Origin: Roseimicrobium gellanilyticum
Lineage (GTDB): Bacteria; Verrucomicrobiota; Verrucomicrobiia; Verrucomicrobiales; Verrucomicrobiaceae
Length of the DNA: 64,000 bases
NCBI RefSeq assembly: GCF_003315205.1
Contig: NZ_QNRR01000008.1
Coordinates: 186,001 to 250,000 of the forward strand
Direction: 5' to 3'
Position numbers and translations under genes: made by a program. A model generated the notes under the pieces. That model saw only the letters and a list, made by a program, of their open reading frames with translations. It searched no databases and had not been told where the DNA came from. Each line of letters opens with the position of its first letter. Positions within the stretch are counted from its first letter, which is position 1. Of the stretch, positions 8,548 through 62,213 are shown one piece after another.

Positions 8548-9789
8548 ATGTCCGAGCAACCTTCCAATCCCACACCTTCGGAGCCGAGCAGTCAGAGCCC
8601 GCCCACCGAAGAACTTTTGCCAGACCAGCAGCGGAAGCCCCGCCTGAGCCTCTATCTTGTTGGCGTGCTCGTGCTCCTTGGTGCGGGTGTGTATGCGGGC
8701 ATGTCTCCGCGCATCGCCCAACGCAAGGCCGTCGAGGAGGAATCCAAGCAACTCTCGCTGCGTACCTTTGCCACCGTGAATCCCACCCCCGGAAAGCCGC
8801 CAGAGCAGGTGACGCTCTCTGCGGAGCTCAAGCCGATCATCGAGACCCCGGTGTATGCGCGTGCCAGCGGCTATGTGCGGAAGTGGTATGTGGATCTCGG
8901 CGCGAAGGTGAAGGAAGGCGAGCTGCTCGCAGAGCTGGAAACGCCTGAGATTGATCGCGAACTCGCGGAAGGTCGCGCCACGCTGCGCCAGGCGGAGGCG
9001 GCACTGGGCCTTGCGGAATCCACCGCGAAACGTTGGGAAGAACTCGCCGGCACCAAGTCCGTGAGCGCGCAGGAAGTGGAGGAAAAGCGTGCCGATGCCG
9101 CGCTGAAGACTGCCGCGATGGAGGCGGAAAAGGCGCGGGTGCAGCGGCTGGAACAACTCACTTCGTTCTCGAGGATCACGGCTCCGTTCGATGGCACGAT
9201 CACCTCTCGTGAAGTGGACGTGGGCCAACTCGTGAGTGCGGGCAGCAGCCATGAACTCTTCCGTCTCGCGAAAACGAACAAGCTGCGTGCCTACATCCGC
9301 GTGCCGCAGACCCAGGCGCGTGGCGTGCGGATTGGCCAATGCGCGGAAGTGGTGGTGCCTGAGATTTTGGGTGAGACTTTCATTGCGAAGATCATCCGCA
9401 CTGCAGGTGCCATGGATACCGCTTCGCGTACACTGCTGACCGAGTTGGAGATTGATAACGAGAAGGGCGAGATCCTTGCCGGCAGCTATGCCCGTGTGCG
9501 CCTGGCGCAGAATCAGCCGGATGCGCTGCTGACGCTGCCTGCGAACACCCTGCTCTTCCGTGCGGAAGGCATCCAGGTGGGAGTGGTGGATGCACAGAAC
9601 AAGGTGCAGATGCGCACGCTGAAGATTGGCCGCGACTTCGGTCCTAATGTGGAAATCCTCGGTGGTGTGGAGACGGGAGACCGCGTGGTGCTGAATCCGC
9701 CGGACTCGCTGGCGAGTGGGACTGAGGTACGGCTGGCGGCGGTGGAGCCTGTGGCGGCCAGTGGAGAGGTGAAGACGGCGGCGAGGTGA
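8548..9789 (+). CDS. RND efflux pump, periplasmic adaptor subunit (MFP/HlyD family)
   Basis: A 413-residue membrane-fusion protein. Residues 1-33 are a polar Ser/Pro-rich cytoplasmic tail. One membrane anchor spans about 34-50 (LSLYLVGVLVLLGAGVYAG). A lipoyl half-motif (ARASGYVRKWYVDLGAKVKEG) precedes an Ala/Glu-rich coiled coil (about residues 130-205), and the second lipoyl half is SRITAPFDGTITSREVDVGQ. Beta-barrel and membrane-proximal domains follow. It bridges the permease to an outer-membrane channel. It is the last gene of the operon, and a palindromic hairpin lies 24 nt after the stop. Confidence 0.93.
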   Translation: MSEQPSNPTPSEPSSQSPPTEELLPDQQRKPRLSLYLVGVLVLLGAGVYAGMSPRIAQRKAVEEESKQLSLRTFATVNPTPGKPPEQVTLSAELKPIIETPVYARASGYVRKWYVDLGAKVKEGELLAELETPEIDRELAEGRATLRQAEAALGLAESTAKRWEELAGTKSVSAQEVEEKRADAALKTAAMEAEKARVQRLEQLTSFSRITAPFDGTITSREVDVGQLVSAGSSHELFRLAKTNKLRAYIRVPQTQARGVRIGQCAEVVVPEILGETFIAKIIRTAGAMDTASRTLLTELEIDNEKGEILAGSYARVRLAQNQPDALLTLPANTLLFRAEGIQVGVVDAQNKVQMRTLKIGRDFGPNVEILGGVETGDRVVLNPPDSLASGTEVRLAAVEPVAASGEVKTAAR

Positions 9790-9812
9790 GGAGGTGCCGA
9801 GCGTGATGGTGG

Positions 9813-9833
9813 TCCGCACACTCCGTGTGCGGA
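9813..9833 (+). repeat. CCGCACAC palindrome family, copy 1
   Basis: A perfect hairpin has 9-bp arms (TCCGCACAC / GTGTGCGGA) and a TCC loop. It starts 24 nt after the adaptor stop codon and reads in the same direction as the gene. Copies with the same flanks (GGTCCGC...GCGGTCA) occur at 10405-10426 and 55235-55253, also just after stop codons and in the sense orientation. It has no T-run, so a REP-like or RNA-stabilising role is as likely as termination. Confidence 0.75.
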
Positions 9834-9889
9834 TGGCATGTGTCAGGATGGCTCGGCTCTCATATGAGGTGAGAGCGTTGCATGCTGTC

Positions 9890-10040
9890 AAGGAGTGGGG
9901 GCATTCCTGCCCCAATTGGTGTTGCATGCCGATTTGGCGTTGAGTGTTCTCCGACGCGTTGCCTAGTCTGAAGGTACTATCGCCTTTGTTGGAGAAGGTG
10001 TGCTACAGACCGAAATGGGGGCAGGAATGCCCCCACTCCT
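9890..10040. repeat. Inverted-repeat pair with GGGGCA-TTCC-TGCCCC hairpins
   Basis: Arms at 9890-9917 and 10013-10040 are inverted copies matching at 27 of 28 positions, about 95 bp apart. Each arm contains its own small hairpin (GGGGCA / TGCCCC with a TTCC loop). Two inverted palindromes flanking a spacer is the layout of REP doublets (REPINs). No gene is present in the spacer. This element lies inside a larger repeat-filled gap. Confidence 0.7.
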
Positions 10041-10183
10041 TGGCGGGTGCGACATGTTACCGAAGAAAGGACGTCGGGAGGTTTTGCCACACTTTCGGGA
10101 ATGAGGCGTTCCCGGTCCTTGGGACTGGCGCAGCGCGCTATGGCGTGTGATGTCGTTTGTTTCGTTGAGTGGCGAGAGAGCTT

Positions 10184-10341
10184 CTTGGAGTGCTGGAGCT
10201 TGCTCCAGCTTTTGGGAGCAGAGCTTGCTCTGCGTGAAGTTACATTGATGGTGCACCCGCACTGGAGGATGACTGACTCAGCGCTGGCTTCACGGCAGCA
10301 AGCTGCCTGCGGAAAGCTGGAGCAAGCTCCAGCAGTCCAAG
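10184..10341. repeat. REPIN-like element with two inverted double-hairpin arms (complete copy)
   Basis: The left arm (10184-10239) and right arm (10288-10341) are inverted relatives. Each holds a GCTGGAGC-TTGCTCCAGC hairpin followed by a second hairpin. The second hairpin differs between arms (GCAGAGC-TTGCTCTGC on the left, GGCAGC-TTGCTGCC on the right) but stays fully paired. The right arm recurs at 51734-51787 with all 54 bases identical. Such a double-palindrome unit is typical of REPINs mobilised by RAYT transposases; no RAYT gene lies in the window. Confidence 0.75.
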
Positions 10342-10404
10342 TTTGTTGGTGAGTGGTGTGAAATGCTGGGGGAGTCGTCGCGTCGGGGTGTGCGACGCGG
10401 CCTG

Positions 10405-10426
10405 ACCGCACACGGAGTGTGTCGGA
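10405..10426 (-). repeat. CCGCACAC palindrome family, copy 2
   Basis: The palindrome here is CCGCACAC-GGA-GTGTGTCGG on the plus strand, imperfect by one inserted T. It lies 25 nt downstream of the minus-strand stop at 10450 and reads in that gene's sense direction as GGTCCGACACACTCC and so on. Together with copy 1 it frames the 660-bp gap. Confidence 0.7.
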
Positions 10427-10449
10427 CCACTTTGATGGGACCACCAGGG

Positions 10450-12690
10450 CTACTTCACCGCCACCTTCGCCTTCGGCAGTGGCACGAAGTGCTCCACGTA
10501 GCCGATCATCATCTCATCATAAGTCTGGGCACCCCAACGGACTTCCTTGGTGGGGTCGGGATTGGCGGGATTGTTCGTGCTGTTGTCGTACACGGCGGTG
10601 ATCTTCACGACGCTGCCGCGAGGGACAAACTTGGGCTGCTTGTAGTCATAGGCGAGCTGCCAGTTGAAGTCATAGCGGGGAATGTCGAGCAGGGTCTCGG
10701 TCTTGCCGTCCGGGTAGGTGACTTCGTATTTGAAGGCTTTGCCTCGCACATGCATGTGGGCCATGTAGGCGCTGAAGAGCATGTCGGTGGGCACGCCTTG
10801 ATTGCGCACTTCAACGTGATCGGAGGCACCAGCAGGGATGCGGATGCGGGGGTGGGACACGGCGGCCACTTTCACTTCGTACTCGGGTGGTTCTTTGGAG
10901 AAGATCATGCCGATCTTCAGCTGATCCTCCACGGTCGTGCCATTCGGCGTGTAGTGGATCTGGAAGCTGATGGTGGAGCCGGCAGGCAGGCGCTTCGCGT
11001 GGGCAGGCGGCAGGATGCGATGCGTATTCCCGGGAACATAGGCGGCCCAGTAGCCATCGCTGCCTTCATCGCGGTCTGAGATCTTTGAGCCCTTCTCATG
11101 CACACGGACAATCACGTGATGCACGACCTGCGGTGCGGTGGGAATGATTTCGTAGGCTTGTACCCAGCGGTCCTCGGGGAAGGAAGTGGTGATGGTGGCC
11201 TTTTGATAGGGCATGGTGCCTTCCGCTTTGATGGCAAAAGGCTTGGGCAGCGCAAAGACGACGTCGGGTTTTCCGATGGTCCACTCACCGGAGAACTGGC
11301 GGGGCAGAGGAGCCTCCTTCGGATCGCCGGCGGGACGGTCACTGCTGGTGAGCCAAGAGAGCAGGTCAGTCTTGTCGCGTGTGGAGAGAGAGCAATCGTT
11401 GGCCCACGGGCTCTCGTTGGAAGCATCGCTCTTCGCTGCAAACCACGGAGGCATGGTGCCACGTTCCACCTGCTTGCGAATCATGCCGGCGTTGTCGATG
11501 ACGTCAGCGAGGGTTTCGAGCGGGAAGGGGCCGACGCCATCGGCGCGGTGGCACTCCACGCAGTGATTCTGCAGGATGCGGGAGACTTGATTGTGGTAGG
11601 TGACGTTCGTATTGGCGGTGGCCAGCTTGTCATTGGCGGGAAGATCCAGCGCGCAGCCGGGTGCGGTGGTAGCGGCGATGGAGATGGGCTGCCCTTTGAC
11701 AAGGTCATTCATCGCCATGCGGAGGTACTCTTTCGTGGGAGCATCCTTGCTGTAGCCCAGCCCATACTGGTCATGCACGGCACCGCGATACTTCAGTGTT
11801 CGAGCGGCATCGATGAGGAATACTTCCGTGGTGGTCGTGGCCGAGAGGGTGCGCAGCAGAGTGGACTGGGGATCATTCAACACGGCGGCGGTGATCTGAT
11901 GATCCTTGGTGAATTTCTGCAGGTCTTCCGTTTTGTCGGAAGGCACGGCATTGAGGAGGACGAAGGCGATGTCGCGCTCGCTGCATTCCTTGGCGAGGCG
12001 GGCGTACTCCGCACCGAGCTTGTTGCTAATGGGACAGGTGGCACTGAAGAGAGCGATGATGAGGCCGTTCTTTGCCTTGAGTTGGGAAAGGGTGACATCC
12101 TTGCCGGAGAGATCCTTCAAGGTGATGTCTGCCACCAGATGGCCGATGCCATGGTCTGAGCCCTTAAGTTGCTGGGGTTGTTCCTTCAGGGATTTTTCGT
12201 CGGGCTTCGCGATGGGCGCGGAGTTTTCAGGGCGGGGCAGGTACTTGCGGGAGACCTGGCTGCCGAGCACGGTGCGGGCTTCGTCGAGCACCACGATGCC
12301 GTCCTTGTTGCCATCGAGTTTGTTGAACCACTCTGGGTTGGGCAGTTCTTCTTTGTTGATCTTGCCGTCGTCGTTCGCATCCACCTGTCCGAAGAGGACT
12401 TCGAGTGGCACGGTGCCCTGCTCGTCTTTGCCGTTCTTGATGCGATTCGCGACGGCGCCGCGGAGGCGGGCCATGCCGGAGCGGGTTTCTTCCAAGGTCA
12501 CGAAGCCATCACCGTCCTGGTCCAGCTTCTTGAGCATGGGCTTCTCTTCCAGTTCCGCCATGCTGACACGTCCGTCGCCGTCTTTGTCGAAGGCCTTGAA
12601 CTGATTGGCCAGCGGATCGTCTGCACGGAGCGATGCAGGGATGGCGAGCGTGCTGGCAAGCAGGACGGGGAGAAGGCGGAGGGGCTTCAT
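10450..12690 (-). CDS. Secreted EF-hand / redoxin / cytochrome c / PHM-like copper monooxygenase fusion
   Basis: This 746-residue exported protein has a signal peptide of about 22 residues (MKPLRLLPVLLASTLAIPAS). Four EF-hand loops lie at residues 35-46, 57-68, 104-115 and 126-137 (DKDGDGRVSMAE and similar). A redoxin-like domain covers about 185-340, with a single Cys in ATCPISN. A CVECH heme site lies near residue 380. The C-terminal third resembles copper type II ascorbate-dependent monooxygenases and contains all expected ligands: HH at 524-525, H579, HMH at 645-647 and Met at 727/728. The product may oxidise a C-H bond using copper and receive electrons through the heme domain. The fusion is recognisable in Planctomycetes/Verrucomicrobia; the substrate is unknown. 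Confidence 0.85.
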   Translation of the reverse strand: MKPLRLLPVLLASTLAIPASLRADDPLANQFKAFDKDGDGRVSMAELEEKPMLKKLDQDGDGFVTLEETRSGMARLRGAVANRIKNGKDEQGTVPLEVLFGQVDANDDGKINKEELPNPEWFNKLDGNKDGIVVLDEARTVLGSQVSRKYLPRPENSAPIAKPDEKSLKEQPQQLKGSDHGIGHLVADITLKDLSGKDVTLSQLKAKNGLIIALFSATCPISNKLGAEYARLAKECSERDIAFVLLNAVPSDKTEDLQKFTKDHQITAAVLNDPQSTLLRTLSATTTTEVFLIDAARTLKYRGAVHDQYGLGYSKDAPTKEYLRMAMNDLVKGQPISIAATTAPGCALDLPANDKLATANTNVTYHNQVSRILQNHCVECHRADGVGPFPLETLADVIDNAGMIRKQVERGTMPPWFAAKSDASNESPWANDCSLSTRDKTDLLSWLTSSDRPAGDPKEAPLPRQFSGEWTIGKPDVVFALPKPFAIKAEGTMPYQKATITTSFPEDRWVQAYEIIPTAPQVVHHVIVRVHEKGSKISDRDEGSDGYWAAYVPGNTHRILPPAHAKRLPAGSTISFQIHYTPNGTTVEDQLKIGMIFSKEPPEYEVKVAAVSHPRIRIPAGASDHVEVRNQGVPTDMLFSAYMAHMHVRGKAFKYEVTYPDGKTETLLDIPRYDFNWQLAYDYKQPKFVPRGSVVKITAVYDNSTNNPANPDPTKEVRWGAQTYDEMMIGYVEHFVPLPKAKVAVK

Positions 12691-12778: not shown

Positions 12779-12853
12779 GAGGGTGCTGGGTGTGGCGGGG
12801 TGCACTGGATTCAACACAGAGACACAGAGACGCAGTGGAACTTCGGAGACTGA
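12779..12853. repeat. ACACAGAGAC dispersed repeat, copy 1 (in the 346-bp gap 12691-13036)
   Basis: About 75 bp here (GAGGGTGCTGGGTGTGGCGG, then CAACACAGAGACACAGAGAC and CTTCGGAGACTGA) match 62138-62213 almost base for base. A shorter copy lies at 51580-51615. The repeat begins 89 bp upstream of the minus-strand start at 12690. The rest of the gap 12691-13036 shows only short imperfect hairpins, and no convincing gene was seen. Confidence 0.75.
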
Positions 12854-49600: not shown

Positions 49601-50620
49601 ATGAAAAGCAGCTTTCACGGATTTGCCTCTCTCGAAAAAGGCAAGAAACTGGAGTCCTTCTCCTTCGACCCGGGTCCGTTGGGTGACGAGCAGGTGGAAA
49701 TCGCCGTGGAGTACTGCGGCGTGTGTCACAGTGACCTTTCCATGATCGACAACGAGTGGGGGATGTCCGCCTATCCCCTGGTGCCGGGGCATGAAGTCGT
49801 GGGACGCATCGTGGAAGTGGGGGGCAACGCGAAGGGACTGAAGGTAGGGCAGCGCGTGGGAGTTGGTTGGTTTTCGGGAAGCTGCATGCACTGTGCGCAG
49901 TGTCTCTCGGGAAATCACAACCTGTGTCCGAATGGTGAGGGCACCATCGTGAATCGCCACGGAGGTTTTGCCAATCGGGTGCGTGCGCACTGGGCGTGGG
50001 CCACACTCCTGCCTGAGCAGCTGGATGGCGCGAGCGCCGGGCCGCTCTTCTGCGGAGGCATTACGGTGTTCAATCCTATTGTGCAGTTTGGAGTGCGGCC
50101 GACGGATCGTGTGGGTGTGATTGGCATTGGTGGACTCGGTCACATGGCGGTGCAGTTCCTCAGCAAGTGGGGTTGCGAGGTCTTTGCTTTCACCTCCAGT
50201 GATTCCAAGAGGGAGGAGGCGATGAAGATGGGAGCGCACCAGATTGTGAACTCGCGTGATGAGGCCCAGCTCAAGAAGATTGCAGGATCGCTCGATTTCA
50301 TCATCAGCACGGTGAATGTCGCCATGCCGTGGGATGCCATTTTGAGCAGTCTCGCGCCGAAGGGACGACTCCACTTGGTGGGGGCAGTGTTGGAGCCCAT
50401 CCCGGTGGGAGCGTTCTCCCTCATTGGAGGGCAGAAGAGCATCTCAGGCTCTCCGGTGGGAGGTCCGGCTACGGTTGCAAAGATGCTGGACTTCGCTTCG
50501 AGGCATAAGATTCCGCCGATCACCGAGGAGTTTCCCATGAGCCAGGTGAACGAGGCGCTGGATCATGTGCGCGCGGGGAAAGCACGCTATCGCGTGGTGT
50601 TGAAGAACGACTTGGGCTGA
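49601..50620 (+). CDS. Zinc-dependent alcohol dehydrogenase (YahK-like)
   Basis: A 339-residue MDR-type oxidoreductase started at ATG 49601. Catalytic zinc ligands are in YCGVCHSD (C42) and GHEVVG (H64, E65), with a third Cys in LFCGG. The structural zinc loop is CMHCAQCLSGNHNLC. The Rossmann start is GIGGLGHMAVQFLSKWG. The pattern matches the NADP-preferring aldehyde/alcohol reductases of the YahK/CAD branch. It probably reduces broad-specificity aldehydes. A tandem repeat begins 3 bp after the stop. Confidence 0.9.
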   Translation: MKSSFHGFASLEKGKKLESFSFDPGPLGDEQVEIAVEYCGVCHSDLSMIDNEWGMSAYPLVPGHEVVGRIVEVGGNAKGLKVGQRVGVGWFSGSCMHCAQCLSGNHNLCPNGEGTIVNRHGGFANRVRAHWAWATLLPEQLDGASAGPLFCGGITVFNPIVQFGVRPTDRVGVIGIGGLGHMAVQFLSKWGCEVFAFTSSDSKREEAMKMGAHQIVNSRDEAQLKKIAGSLDFIISTVNVAMPWDAILSSLAPKGRLHLVGAVLEPIPVGAFSLIGGQKSISGSPVGGPATVAKMLDFASRHKIPPITEEFPMSQVNEALDHVRAGKARYRVVLKNDLG

Positions 50621-50622
50621 TG

Positions 50623-50670
50623 GGAGTAATGGAGTAATGGAGTAATGGAGTAATGGAGTAATGGAGTAAT
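50623..50670. repeat. Six-copy 8-bp tandem repeat (GGAGTAAT)
   Basis: Six perfect copies of GGAGTAAT and one decayed unit begin 3 bp after the alcohol dehydrogenase stop. Each unit contains TAA, so nearby frames close. It lies 50 bp upstream of the methyltransferase start and could change length by slippage. Confidence 0.85.
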
Positions 50671-50719
50671 GGAGTAGTGCGGTGGGTGCCGCCATATCCC
50701 CCCTCAATGACTTTGACGC

Positions 50720-51579: not shown

Positions 51580-51615
51580 CAAACACAGAGACGCAGAGGA
51601 ACTTCGGAGACTGAG
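51580..51615. repeat. ACACAGAGAC dispersed repeat, copy 2 (short)
   Basis: The core CAAACACAGAGACGCAGAGG, then AACTTCGGAGACTGAG, matches the other two copies but lacks the GGGTGCTGGG head and one GACACA unit. It lies after the methyltransferase stop, next to a REPIN-like fragment. Confidence 0.6.
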
Positions 51616-51669
51616 GTGGGGGAGTGGTCTAAGCGGTGGTGCACGCGGTATGGTGATTTGAGGTGCGGA

Positions 51670-51787
51670 AGCTTGCTCTGCGAGAAGCTGTCGAGCATTT
51701 TTGTCTGGTGGAGGATAGCCGTGTTGATGCTGGCTTCACGGCAGCAAGCTGCCTGCGGAAAGCTGGAGCAAGCTCCAGCAGTCCAAG
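51670..51787. repeat. REPIN-like element, partial copy whose right arm encodes the end of the nucleoside-hydrolase fusion
   Basis: The right arm 51734-51787 is identical over 54 bp to 10288-10341. The left side keeps only the AGCTTGCTCTGCG part of the second hairpin (51670-51682). The arm supplies the last residues (NLDCWSLLQLSAGSLLP) and the stop codon of the minus-strand gene at 51736. Confidence 0.75.
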
Positions 51788-54700
51788 TTCGTTGCGTCGC
51801 AATGTTTAGTGGCAAGCGCGTGGCAGCGTGCGATCACATGAGAGTGATATCGACTTGAGAACTCTGCGAGGTGGCGAGTGATCTTCAGTTGGCGGGCTGA
51901 AGTTTCAGTGTTACGAGCGTTCCAGGGGGGGAGTTTGATGGGGAGCTTTGAGAAGGTGCCCGCGATTACGTCGAATGCCGGAAGCGGTTCTTCTTTTCCA
52001 CCTTCCTCCAGCATTGCTTTGTACTTTCCGGGTTTCAGCAGGCGGAGTTCGGCTTCGAAAAAGCGATCTTCCTCGCCAAAGTGAAACAACTCTGCCGTGA
52101 GGTGGGTGGTATTCGCCTTCGTTACGAACACCGCCATGTCCTGCGCGGGAGTGACCCAGCGCACGGCCATTTGGGGGAAGCGGGGTGCATTCGTATCGCC
52201 GCTCACCATGCGGTAGAGCAGTTCGTGCTTGGGCAGGGTGACTCCTTTGTAGTCATCAAACTTGTAATCCTCCGCGAGGAACTGGGCGAAGCGCATGACG
52301 CGGTCTGTCGAGCGCACTTCGCTGGTGAAGCCGGGGAAGTTCACGCGCAGAGCTTTGGCGCTGTCGCGCAGGGCGGCGGTGATCTCTTCGCGGCCCGTGG
52401 CGTCTGAGCGCAGGGTGTGCTGGGCGCTTTCCAGGGCGAGCAGTTCATCGAATTCCGTGGTGCCGGTCAGGGCTTTGCAACGGGCGAGGGACTTCACCAG
52501 AGCGCCGAAGTTGCTGTTCGCATTTTCACGAGGGCCGAGATTCTCCGCGCACCAGGCGTCGCTGCCGGGCTTCGCATGGCTGGGTTCTTTCTGCTTCAGC
52601 CACTTCAGACGCATGGCGGCCATGGAGCGCAGGGGTTGCAGGTACTTGTCCTTGCCGGTTTTCACGTGGGCGATGACCATCGCATCCGTGAGCTCGGTCA
52701 TGACGCTGGGCCAGATGTAGTAGGAGTGCATGTAGCCACCTGGCTTCACCGGTTCCCACCACGGCTTCTCCGCGCCAGCGGTGGCACCATCGGGCCAGCG
52801 GATGGAGGCCGGGAGGATGCCGGCGGGCTTGCCATTCTCTGCGCGGGCGGTGGCATCCACCCAGGTGTCCAGCCATGCGGGAAGGAGGTCATCCAGCACC
52901 GCATCATTCTGCTGCTGCCAGATGAGGAAGGCGGGATGCAGCGCTCCCACGTCGGCCATCACATCGAATGCGCGAGCCGGAGCGGGACTGGTGCCCGTGG
53001 CGCTGAAGTAGAAGCTCTTGAACTGGAGCTGGCCGCGCTCATTTTTTCCCGTCCAAGCATCGCGCATGAAGGGGCCCATCTTCAGAGCCCAATCCTTCCA
53101 CCGCTTTTGCTGCGGCTCCAGCACCATGAGGGGAATGAGATTGTCGGTGGTGTCCTCAGCGGCGTGCTCCACATCGGTGATCTCCTGATTGAAGCCGCCC
53201 TTGAGATGCGGGCGGTTCATGGCGGACTTGGAGAACTTGAGCTGGGCTGTGAGGGATTTCTTGTCGTCAAAGCCCAAGAGCACGGAGGCCCACCAGCGCC
53301 ACATTTCGCAGTCGTCGCCCCAGCCGCCGCCGAACTGGCCGTCTTCGCGTTGACGGTTATCGATCCACCAGTGGATGATTTCCCGCAGGCGCTCAATCTG
53401 CTCGCGTTGGAGCACGGCCCACTCGGGGGCATCGGGTGTATCAGGAAGTGAATTTGTATCAAAGGATGTTTGAGAGACTGAATTCAACCATGGGATGGGT
53501 TTTCCCAGATACATGCCGGGGATGGGATTCTGCGGGAAGGCTTTCTGGTAACGGCGAAAGTCTTCGCAGGCTCGCTGATGCAGCTTTGGCCCCTCTACGG
53601 GATGGCTGCGGATGGTGCTGTTCTCGATCAACTGCCACGCACGCATGCGGCCCTGATACAATGCGGTGATGACGTGCAGGGGCGAGCTCTCGGGAATGCC
53701 GAAGTCGTAGGCATCCCACTGCTTCCCGTAGAACTTCAGGCCGCTGCGATTCCACTTTTCAACAAACGCGGCAAGCGTGGCTGCTTCGGCTTGGAGAGAA
53801 GGGCTGGCGGTAGATGATTTCGAAAGCTCCCTGAGCAGGCGCTGGCGTTCGGTCTCATCCTGCGCATTCCCCGCTTGTTTGATGAGTTCTTCACTGCTCG
53901 TGTCGCCGGTCCTCTTGTCCTGCGGCTTTCCGACAGTCGTGGGAGGCTGGATGAGCAGTTCATCCAGCACGGATTCGATGTAGCGGTCATTGGGCTTCCC
54001 GGAGGCGTCCTTCTTCTTGAGCAGGTAGGACTGGTCCTTGTCCGGCTCGGACTTCCACTCGAAGGTCATGTCGTCCTTCAGATCCATGAAGCCCGTGGAC
54101 TGCAGGTCCCAATAGTCCCGCTGACCGCGCACCGCGTAGAGCACGGAAGCAAGATCCGCCACGTGGCGGTCCTTCGCGGTGCCGCCGAAGTAGTGCTCAT
54201 AGGAGCGGCGGACGGGATTGTTCGCGGGTGTCTTCGCAAGGCTCTTGCCAATCTGCAGACCACTAGGCACGGAACACACCTCACGACCGGCAAAGACGAT
54301 GGGGGTGGGCCATTCGCGAATCACCTTCAAGACGGAGGCGGGCTCGCGCTGGAAGTTCACATTGCCCAGCTTCAGGTCATCCTTCGCAGGTGAGCCGATG
54401 AAGTTGCCGCCCATGCACACATAGAGCTTCACCTTGCGCTTCACGAGGTCGGCTCCGGAGAGGCGGGTGCCTTCTGCGGGGAGTTCCAGGAGGTTTCCCA
54501 GGTTCGTGAGGTAACCCACGGTGACGATGGTCACGGAATGGTCGGGCTGCTTCTCGAGGATGTCGCGGTATACCAGGGCGGCGTCAGGCGCATCGGCGGT
54601 GGATTTGAGTGCGGTGGGGAACTCCCGGGTGATTTGATCCACATACTTGGAGGGATGGCTGGTGCCATGTTTCTTCGGAGCTCCGATGGGAAGATGGGGG

Positions 54701-55234: not shown

Positions 55235-55253
55235 CCGCACACGGAGTGTGCGG
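55235..55253 (-). repeat. CCGCACAC palindrome family, copy 3
   Basis: The perfect palindrome CCGCACAC-GGA-GTGTGCGG lies 27 nt downstream of the minus-strand stop at 55280 and reads in its sense direction as GGTCCGCACACTCC and so on. The gap around it (54991-55279) also has an 8-bp hairpin at 55151-55200 (GACGCAGC / GCTGCGTC) and no gene. Confidence 0.7.
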
Positions 55254-55279
55254 ACCACCACGTCTGGTCCCTTCGCTTG

Positions 55280-62137: not shown

Positions 62138-62213
62138 GAGGGTGCTGGGTGTGGCGGGCTGCATTGGCTTCAACACAGAGACACAGAGACGCAGAGGAAA
62201 CTTCGGAGACTGA
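62138..62213. repeat. ACACAGAGAC dispersed repeat, copy 3
   Basis: About 76 bp with the same head (GAGGGTGCTGGGTGTGGCGG) and core as 12779-12853, differing at a handful of positions and by one inserted A. It begins 83 bp upstream of the minus-strand start at 62055, almost the same distance as copy 1 from its gene (89 bp). Confidence 0.75.

Follow-up and report, generated by a model that had tools for sequence, protein, structure and literature searches.

What is the repeat that lies in the convergent intergene between an HlyD-family membrane-fusion protein gene (8548-9789, plus strand), which ends upstream of it, and a gene for an EF-hand/redoxin-type protein (10450-12690, minus strand), whose 3′ end faces it, and what could have spread it? 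The window, by which we mean the whole stretch of 64,000 nucleotides analysed here, belongs to the genome of Roseimicrobium gellanilyticum (G000), and a congener (G001) served for comparison. An earlier note described the repeat as a REP doublet (REPIN) and stated that no such description was known in the phylum. This last statement fails, since the available text of PMC3733652 (2013) reports that Opitutus terrae, a verrucomicrobium, is highly enriched in GTAG repeats; REPs in Verrucomicrobia are therefore not new. It was the sole paper naming Verrucomicrobia found in the literature searched, although two planctomycete papers (PMC10509075, PMC10817699) contain the name Opitutus terrae together with words beginning in rep and rayt, and a word search of PMC2817692 returned no mention of Verrucomicrobia, Planctomycetes or Opitutus. 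No account of the tag TTTGGA[G/C]T, which marks the ends of the present repeat, was found in the literature searched, matches to the tag letters being judged by titles among those listed.

The element is non-coding and 160 bp long (10183-10342, plus strand; G000:C8:196183-196342), one base wider at each end than the two-hairpin arms first noticed at 10184-10239 and 10288-10341, both of which are present. The left or A arm begins with the tag TCTTGGAGT (10183-10191; family consensus ATTTGGA[G/C]T), followed by the first hairpin, H1, GCTGGAGCTTGCTCCAGC (10192-10209), then by TTT, by the second hairpin, H2, GCAGAGCTTGCTCTGC (10218-10233), and by GTGAAG (10234-10239). After a spacer (10240-10287), which shows partial likeness by eye among some copies, the parts recur in reverse order on the minus strand as the right or B arm: CTTCAC, H2 GGCAGCTTGCTGCC (10294-10307; GGCAGCAAGCTGCC in the window reading), H1 (10316-10333) and the right tag, ACTTGGACT in minus-strand reading (10334-10342). 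H1 is common to both arms; H2 differs between them (GCAGAGC versus GGCAGC cores), and both its versions, left GCAGAGCTTGCTCTGC and right GGCAGCAAGCTGCC, pair fully, as had been claimed. The terminal inverted repeats are 29 nt long with 97% complementarity, and the window has 4 occurrences of GAGCTTGCTC, where chance would give 0.28. At 160 bp there is no room for a transposase gene, and the element thus lacks the TnpA of its own by which an IS200/IS605 member is recognised. Folding as ssDNA gave both hairpins for the left arm (-12.1 kcal/mol, z -2.10, with 6 of 200 shuffles equally good) and a single long hairpin for bases 1-148 of the element (-40.7, z -4.55, 0 of 200 shuffles). The right arm by itself did not outdo its shuffles (z -0.82, 43 of 200), and neither did the stretch 51650-51700, which holds a collapsed arm of the second window copy (z -0.58).

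Other repeats occur around the element and elsewhere in the window. The same intergene holds a second REPIN-like inverted pair of another family, CAAGGAGTGGGGGCATTCCTGCCCCAATT (9889-9917 and 10014-10042), and query positions over this pair gave dozens of short matches in G001. Repeats like GGTGGTCCGCACACTCCGTGTGCGG, at 9807-9832, about 10403-10430 and 55235-55260, resemble the inverted repeats flanking the Y1 genes G000:C16:76230 (L039/L059) and G001 L102. At about 10100-10125 lies half of a CCAAGGAG-type repeat resembling the termini of the L038 Y1 gene, and the orthologous place in G001 has an inverted pair of this type. A tandem array with the 8-base unit GGAGTAAT spans 50615-50686, and a further dispersed repeat, AACACAGAGACACAGAGACGCAG..., is found at 12779-12840, 62138-62199 and 51583-51614.

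The second window copy (51656-51788, plus strand) joins a collapsed A arm (51656-51687) to an intact B arm (51734-51788). The claimed 54-bp identity between 10288-10341 and 51734-51787, about 41 kb away, holds letter for letter, but the second site is more than a single arm: its left arm is kept in collapsed form at 51656-51687, where loss of H1 has joined the tag ATTTGAGGT directly to H2. The same kind of collapse was found at G000:C8:285250-285600 (L184). The family extends well beyond these two copies, as the 18-bp H1 has 28 exact occurrences in the 7,930,206 bases of G000 (reversed control 0) and the covariance model of the arm, R1, built from alignment A1, detected, at a threshold of 45 bits, at least 34 arms in G000 and at least 17 in G001. 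One of the 34 (C4:159183, L180) proved on inspection to belong to a sister family. At E <= 1 the model gave at least 122 matches in G000 and at least 128 in G001; weak members are undercounted, since the best 150 of about 8,500 candidates per genome were scored. The copy number in G000 is modest. Unit length was 158-162 bp in 8 of 10 elements compared and 187 bp in the other two. Among the 38 genomes of the relatives set the longer string TTGGASTGCTGGAGCTTGCTCCAGC occurred only in G000 (21) and G001 (12), and a search of a plasmid collection with the element gave no match. The REPINs L022 and L027 stop at the ends of contigs C10 and C18; past the B arm both continue into an identical 50-base flank, so that a larger repeat, perhaps an IS, may adjoin the two.

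The doublet architecture proposed in the earlier note is borne out by the dispersed copies. There are 13 inverted pairs in G000 and 7 in G001, with tags pointing outward in 20 of 20, and the lower coordinates of paired arms are a constrained distance apart (101-109 bp in 17 pairs, 130-131 in 3). Every pair combines one A arm, with H2 GNNGAGCTTGCTCNNC, and one B arm, with H2 GGCAGCTTGCTGCC or GGCAGCCTGCTGCC, although the 20 pairs are not independent trials because their ancestry is shared. Nineteen pairs were typed by script and one, C15:82953, by eye because its B-arm H2 is mutated; one G000 partner arm, C15:83060, reached only 38.5 bits. As judged from these sequences, the element shows distinct left and right ends. 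The difference between the two window arms is no drift between equal arms: it is the left/right asymmetry of all 20 doublets. H1 exists in at least three types combined with the same H2s, namely GCTGGAGCTTGCTCCAGC, GCTGGATC[CT]CGCATGCGGGACAGC (L150, L151, L167) and GCGGGAGCTTGCTCCCGC (L169), and in at least three mixed elements (L025, L168, L178) one end has the first of these types and the opposite end the second. The foot of the hairpin is GA[G/C]T, rarely GAAT or CAAGT, in the family arms aligned. Membership in the GTAG-tagged REPs was considered and rejected, GT[AG]G being absent from this position. We conclude that the element represents a genuine REPIN family, which differs from known ones by its tag, double hairpin and asymmetry.

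Pairing has been retained while the stems changed. Alignment A6, which together with A7 (see below) supersedes A1 (19 of 32 distinct arms) and A2 (hairpins preselected for pairing), comprises 32 arms with the first H1 type, 29 of them distinct after trimming, H1 being invariant by the choice of rows. In A6 99.4% of cells are paired, and three H2 pairs changed on both sides account for 26 double-changed cells, a value reached by 0 of 500 shuffles; sliding the partner by 1-3 columns left 0 such cells. The number of further pair types was not above shuffles (499 of 500 as high). The signal comes mostly from A versus B arms, and among the A arms the variants GCAGAG, GCGGAG, GTGGAG and GCTGAG are each still matched by a pairing partner. 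Compensation can also be seen at one orthologous site, G000:C4:459743 and G001:2719438, with flanks 88-90% identical and a diverged spacer: eight stem substitutions amount to four compensated pairs, with a T-A to G-C exchange in both H1 stems and two exchanges in the A-arm H2.

Comparison with the congener shows shared and missing copies, and forms that suggest decay. In the G001 intergene matching that of the window copy the element is absent, with about 270 bases against about 610 between alignable flanks, and the C4:457376 copy is likewise missing from G001, which has about 30 bases where G000 has about 610; the junctions of both empty sites are not base-exact, and the absences could be deletions. 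When 25 G000 and 11 G001 element loci were compared by flanking sequence, three sites were shared, a fourth overlap of 244 bases being the neighbourhood of one of the three. Part of the family therefore predates the split of the two genomes. At one shared site G000 carries a double-foot solo palindrome (C1:426536) and G001 a full doublet (1200960); at another the full doublet is in G000 (C8:156387) and only a B arm in G001 (2026946). Decayed forms were common in the stretches inspected and included five double-foot solos (four in G000, one in G001), collapsed A arms and lone B arms. According to the available text of PMC6006769, double-foot forms could come from central deletion of an inverted dimer, and the pair C1:426536 and G001:1200960 would fit such an origin. 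Judging by the forms seen, copies would later decay in place through deletion between like hairpins.

At L044:5250-5800 a window-family copy lies between arms resembling the inverted repeats of the RAYT gene C1:698632, and a similar arrangement occurs at G001:2719438. The idea that the C4:457376 copy, inside such arms, travelled as cargo was set aside, because C4:457376 and G001:2719438 were the only 2 of 36 loci scanned with arms on both sides.

A candidate enzyme was sought among the Y1 genes. G000 does contain RAYT genes, with 12 matches to NF047646 (3 over cut-off) and 13 to PF01797, partly the same genes. The product of C1:698632 scores 92.4 bits against NF047646 (cut-off 80) and against Pfam Y1_Tnp 22.9 bits in one search, slightly below the cut-off of 23, and 23.6 bits in another, contains the HUH and catalytic-Tyr motifs of Y1 enzymes, and matches E. 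coli TnpA-REP 4ER8 (phmmer E 9e-7) with NHYH and YVHGNP aligned. Hairpins of the form TTTGGAGTGC...GCTTT, their stem bulged, lie in the flanks of its gene. In both genomes most Y1/RAYT loci (L029-L041, L054-L065, L087-L103) have hairpin-bearing inverted repeats of their own.

The tag was searched for by a strict test that required the tag itself, a GC foot, pairing of the four outer positions and TT, applied to 500 bases beyond and 150 inside the ORF, with first-order Markov sequences as shuffles. A strict tagged hairpin was present at 26 of the 37 loci of the order whose RAYT has NHYH (73 hits against 0.04 expected) and at 0 of 24 other Y1 loci; L032, with no ORF over the profile cut-off, was left out of this set. 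Since L040/L104 and L089/L116 are the same genes, the count is 25 of 35 distinct loci. Among the 11 loci failing the test, L040/L104, L056 and L091 show a bulged-stem version by eye. A search across the phylum gave a match in 49 of 288 genomes, from which 30 loci were fetched, 6 already in the set and 24 new, and scanned whole: 19 of the 24 were tagged (60 hits, reversed controls 0), including 17 of the 21 outside the order, and one of the five that failed, L222, shows the TTTGGAGTGC repeat by eye. A tree of 57 rows was made after removing L104 and L116, which duplicate L040 and L089, as well as L037 and L122, which exceed 400 aa. A single clade of 34 rows with support 98/99 contains every one of its 26 rows labelled as tagged; L040 was so labelled by eye because its stem is bulged. 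The 34 clade rows were chosen on NHYH, and 33 have the motif W[H/Q/Y/N/F]N with Y[V/T]xxN[P/A], L123 being cut short. Set against the subclasses in Table 1 of PMC6006769, as available, the motif triplets match no row exactly; subclass 2.1 is nearest by eye, on motif comparison only. Another tag, CCA[AT]GGAG, flanks 6 of the 24 non-NHYH loci on at least one side, 2 of them on both, and stands on one side of 4 of the 37 NHYH loci.

The loose pattern TTGGASTGCN{8,38}GCTTT was counted over 141 genomes of the order. Its hits numbered 1838 (control 202) among the 57 genomes that have the RAYT and 335 (control 199) among the 84 that lack it (p = 2e-16, kinship among genomes uncorrected). Hits exceeded the control by at least 8 in 38 of 57 RAYT-bearing versus 7 of 84 RAYT-lacking genomes, 19 of the 57 having no such excess. 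Alignment A7 was made across genomes from 38 distinct tagged hairpins of 25 RAYT loci plus that of the window, selected solely on TGGA[GC]TGC, 14 bases and GCTT, so that the GC foot and GA[G/C]T were fixed by choice. In its 39 H1 hairpins 55 cells are changed on both sides, a value that 0 of 500 shuffles reached and that dropped to 1-13 on sliding the partner. Changed pairs number 5, no more than shuffling gives (263 of 500), and 17 of the 39 hairpins have their innermost pair open. The covariation suggested by the two window arms is present in the alignment of further copies, A6, with double-changed cells above shuffles, as also among the tagged hairpins of A7. The sharing of the tag with one RAYT clade and its enrichment in the genomes of that clade argue for a REPIN class with a tag other than the published GT[AG]G, and the association of tag and clade, in the order and beyond, is well supported by these comparisons.

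The window family's own GCTGGAGC hairpin was found at 0 of 42 Y1/RAYT loci of G000 and G001 (13 + 12 + 17, about 1.5 kb each side, some genes twice). In G001 the RAYT gene 836607 lies between REPINs of a sister family (L090, L164) with H1 GCGGCAGCCTGCTGCCGC (GGCAGCC), the usual cognate arrangement. Because none of the 42 loci bears the family's hairpin, we can only infer from sequence that the RAYT clade sharing its tag would mobilise the window family.

How does the family relate to systems already described, as far as the available texts of the papers cited here go? With the REPINs/BIMEs of Proteobacteria (PMC3116915, PMC6006769) it shares the inverted hairpin doublet, dispersed in many copies in a genome with RAYT genes, and singletons that are remnants of doublets; it differs in its tag, which is TTTGGA[G/C]T and not GT[AG]G, in two hairpins per arm, in strict A/B asymmetry, and in that a cognate RAYT was not found at the 42 loci. 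PMC3733652 recognises GTAG and CGTC superfamilies of tagged REPs, which are likewise short palindromes tagged at one end, with sub-families having alternative complementary stem residues and with heterodimers, those of the GTAG type also being associated with RAYTs. The present tag, however, is neither GTAG or one of its variants (GYAG, GYRG, GTRG, GTMG, GTGG) nor CGTC. The TIRYTs/TIRtrons of the same paper, RAYT-like genes with long TIRs, are alike in that inverted repeats, in part double palindromes, enclose a transposase gene and recur at other places, but their GGGGWSAS is not in our tag, and here one tag runs through most of the clade. The solo palindromes with a tag on both sides resemble the "double foot" REPs of TnpA-Y1 subclass 2.4 (PMC6006769), which have another tag, whereas here an orthologous full doublet exists in the congener. 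IS200/IS605 elements, with guide sequences 5′ to palindromes (PMC8266576), also have two distinct ends and hairpins read as ssDNA by a Y1 enzyme, as would be the case for the window element; in contrast to them it has no transposase gene inside and, in most copies, the same H1 at both ends.

One match came from further away. An exact scan with 28 bases, whose coverage may exclude G000 and genomes close to it, hit only one MAG, labelled Candidatus Hydrogenedentota, in which the exact string of tag plus H1 stands on 11 contigs. The rest of the repeat differs: it is shorter (L076-L086) and, opposite the end that bears the matching tag and H1, has GCGCAAGCAAGCTTGCGC-AGTCCA. The MAG has three distant RAYT-like genes (26-28% identity), with no tag nearby (locus positions 1000-2500). 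Considered as a case of transfer between phyla, the match may reflect a shared class, convergence or a mixed bin.

The element is one of a large class of short, probably mobile palindromes with an unusual end tag, which are associated with one group of transposase genes. The explanation that we hold with high confidence is that it is a REPIN, non-autonomous and spread as one asymmetric unit, whose tag and H1 would be recognised by a RAYT of the tag clade. An HUH/Y1 RAYT of this particular clade would recognise TTTGGA[G/C]T beside the foot of H1 (GC...GC-TTT) in single-stranded DNA, and would cut and join at the tag and H1 foot of each end; the unlike H2 hairpins of the two ends may serve to distinguish left and right, a guess drawn from the asymmetry of 20 of 20 pairs. 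In the available text of PMC8266576, TnpA-REP reads single-stranded hairpins together with 5′ GTAG, the position of which could equal that of the IS200/IS605 guide. The tag clade would read TTTGGA[G/C]T in the place where TnpA-REP reads GTAG. The residues W94, Q95, E100, H101 and R104, discussed as the guide-reading region in PMC6006769, are aligned with W, H, D, S and T of the RAYT encoded at C1:698632 (alignment with 4ER8, numbered by hand). Another reason for heterodimers, protection from the removal of long hairpins, is given in PMC3733652.

A version of this explanation, which we would entertain only tentatively, regards the family as orphan and fossil, its own RAYT lost from the genus and its copies now only decaying. 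The 0 of 42 loci carrying its H1, the frequency of decayed forms and the 3 of 11 G001 sites shared with G000 all speak for it, whereas the absence of the window copy from the congener's matching intergene and the arm identical over 54 bp in the two window copies speak against it, as do the three tag-clade RAYTs left in G000 (one with an internal stop codon), which could act in trans. The long terminal inverted repeats and the similar unit length among elements would also be expected of a MITE moved by a DDE transposase through cut-and-paste of double-stranded DNA, but we consider this very improbable: no target-site duplication was seen by eye at the copies inspected (unscored), and the same tag flanks HUH/Y1 genes inside and outside the order. 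To our knowledge, moreover, DDE enzymes do not need covarying hairpin stems.

Covarying hairpins, and the position of the window copy between two convergent genes, would also be compatible with a structured RNA signal, a terminator or processing site that was duplicated and kept for its RNA function and is not mobile. We think this a highly unlikely account of the family, since it does not account for a tag conserved beyond the stems, for the outward symmetry or for the link to RAYTs; window 9600-10600, moreover, gave no Rfam family at cut-off, its two sub-threshold microRNA matches including one over the element with E 0.28. The host may make secondary use of the element as an RNA signal.

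Beyond the REPIN reading of the window family, we are inclined to favour, with some reserve, a phylum-wide further superfamily of tagged REPs, defined by TTTGGA[G/C]T, the foot GC...GC-TTT and a covarying stem, having its own RAYT clade and including asymmetric, miniature REPINs similar to IS200/IS605. As part of this reading, REPINs with a second hairpin marking left and right would behave as miniature IS200/IS605-like units and not as twin REPs. The two congeners, with their shared, altered and missing copies, allow the birth of a REPIN, the in-place change of its stems and its decay to be followed site by site. Published work on REPs and RAYTs, as far as available, has proceeded mainly via the GTAG tag, and a RAYT clade in which another tag has been widely kept would provide natural pairs for studying how a Y1 enzyme reads its guide.
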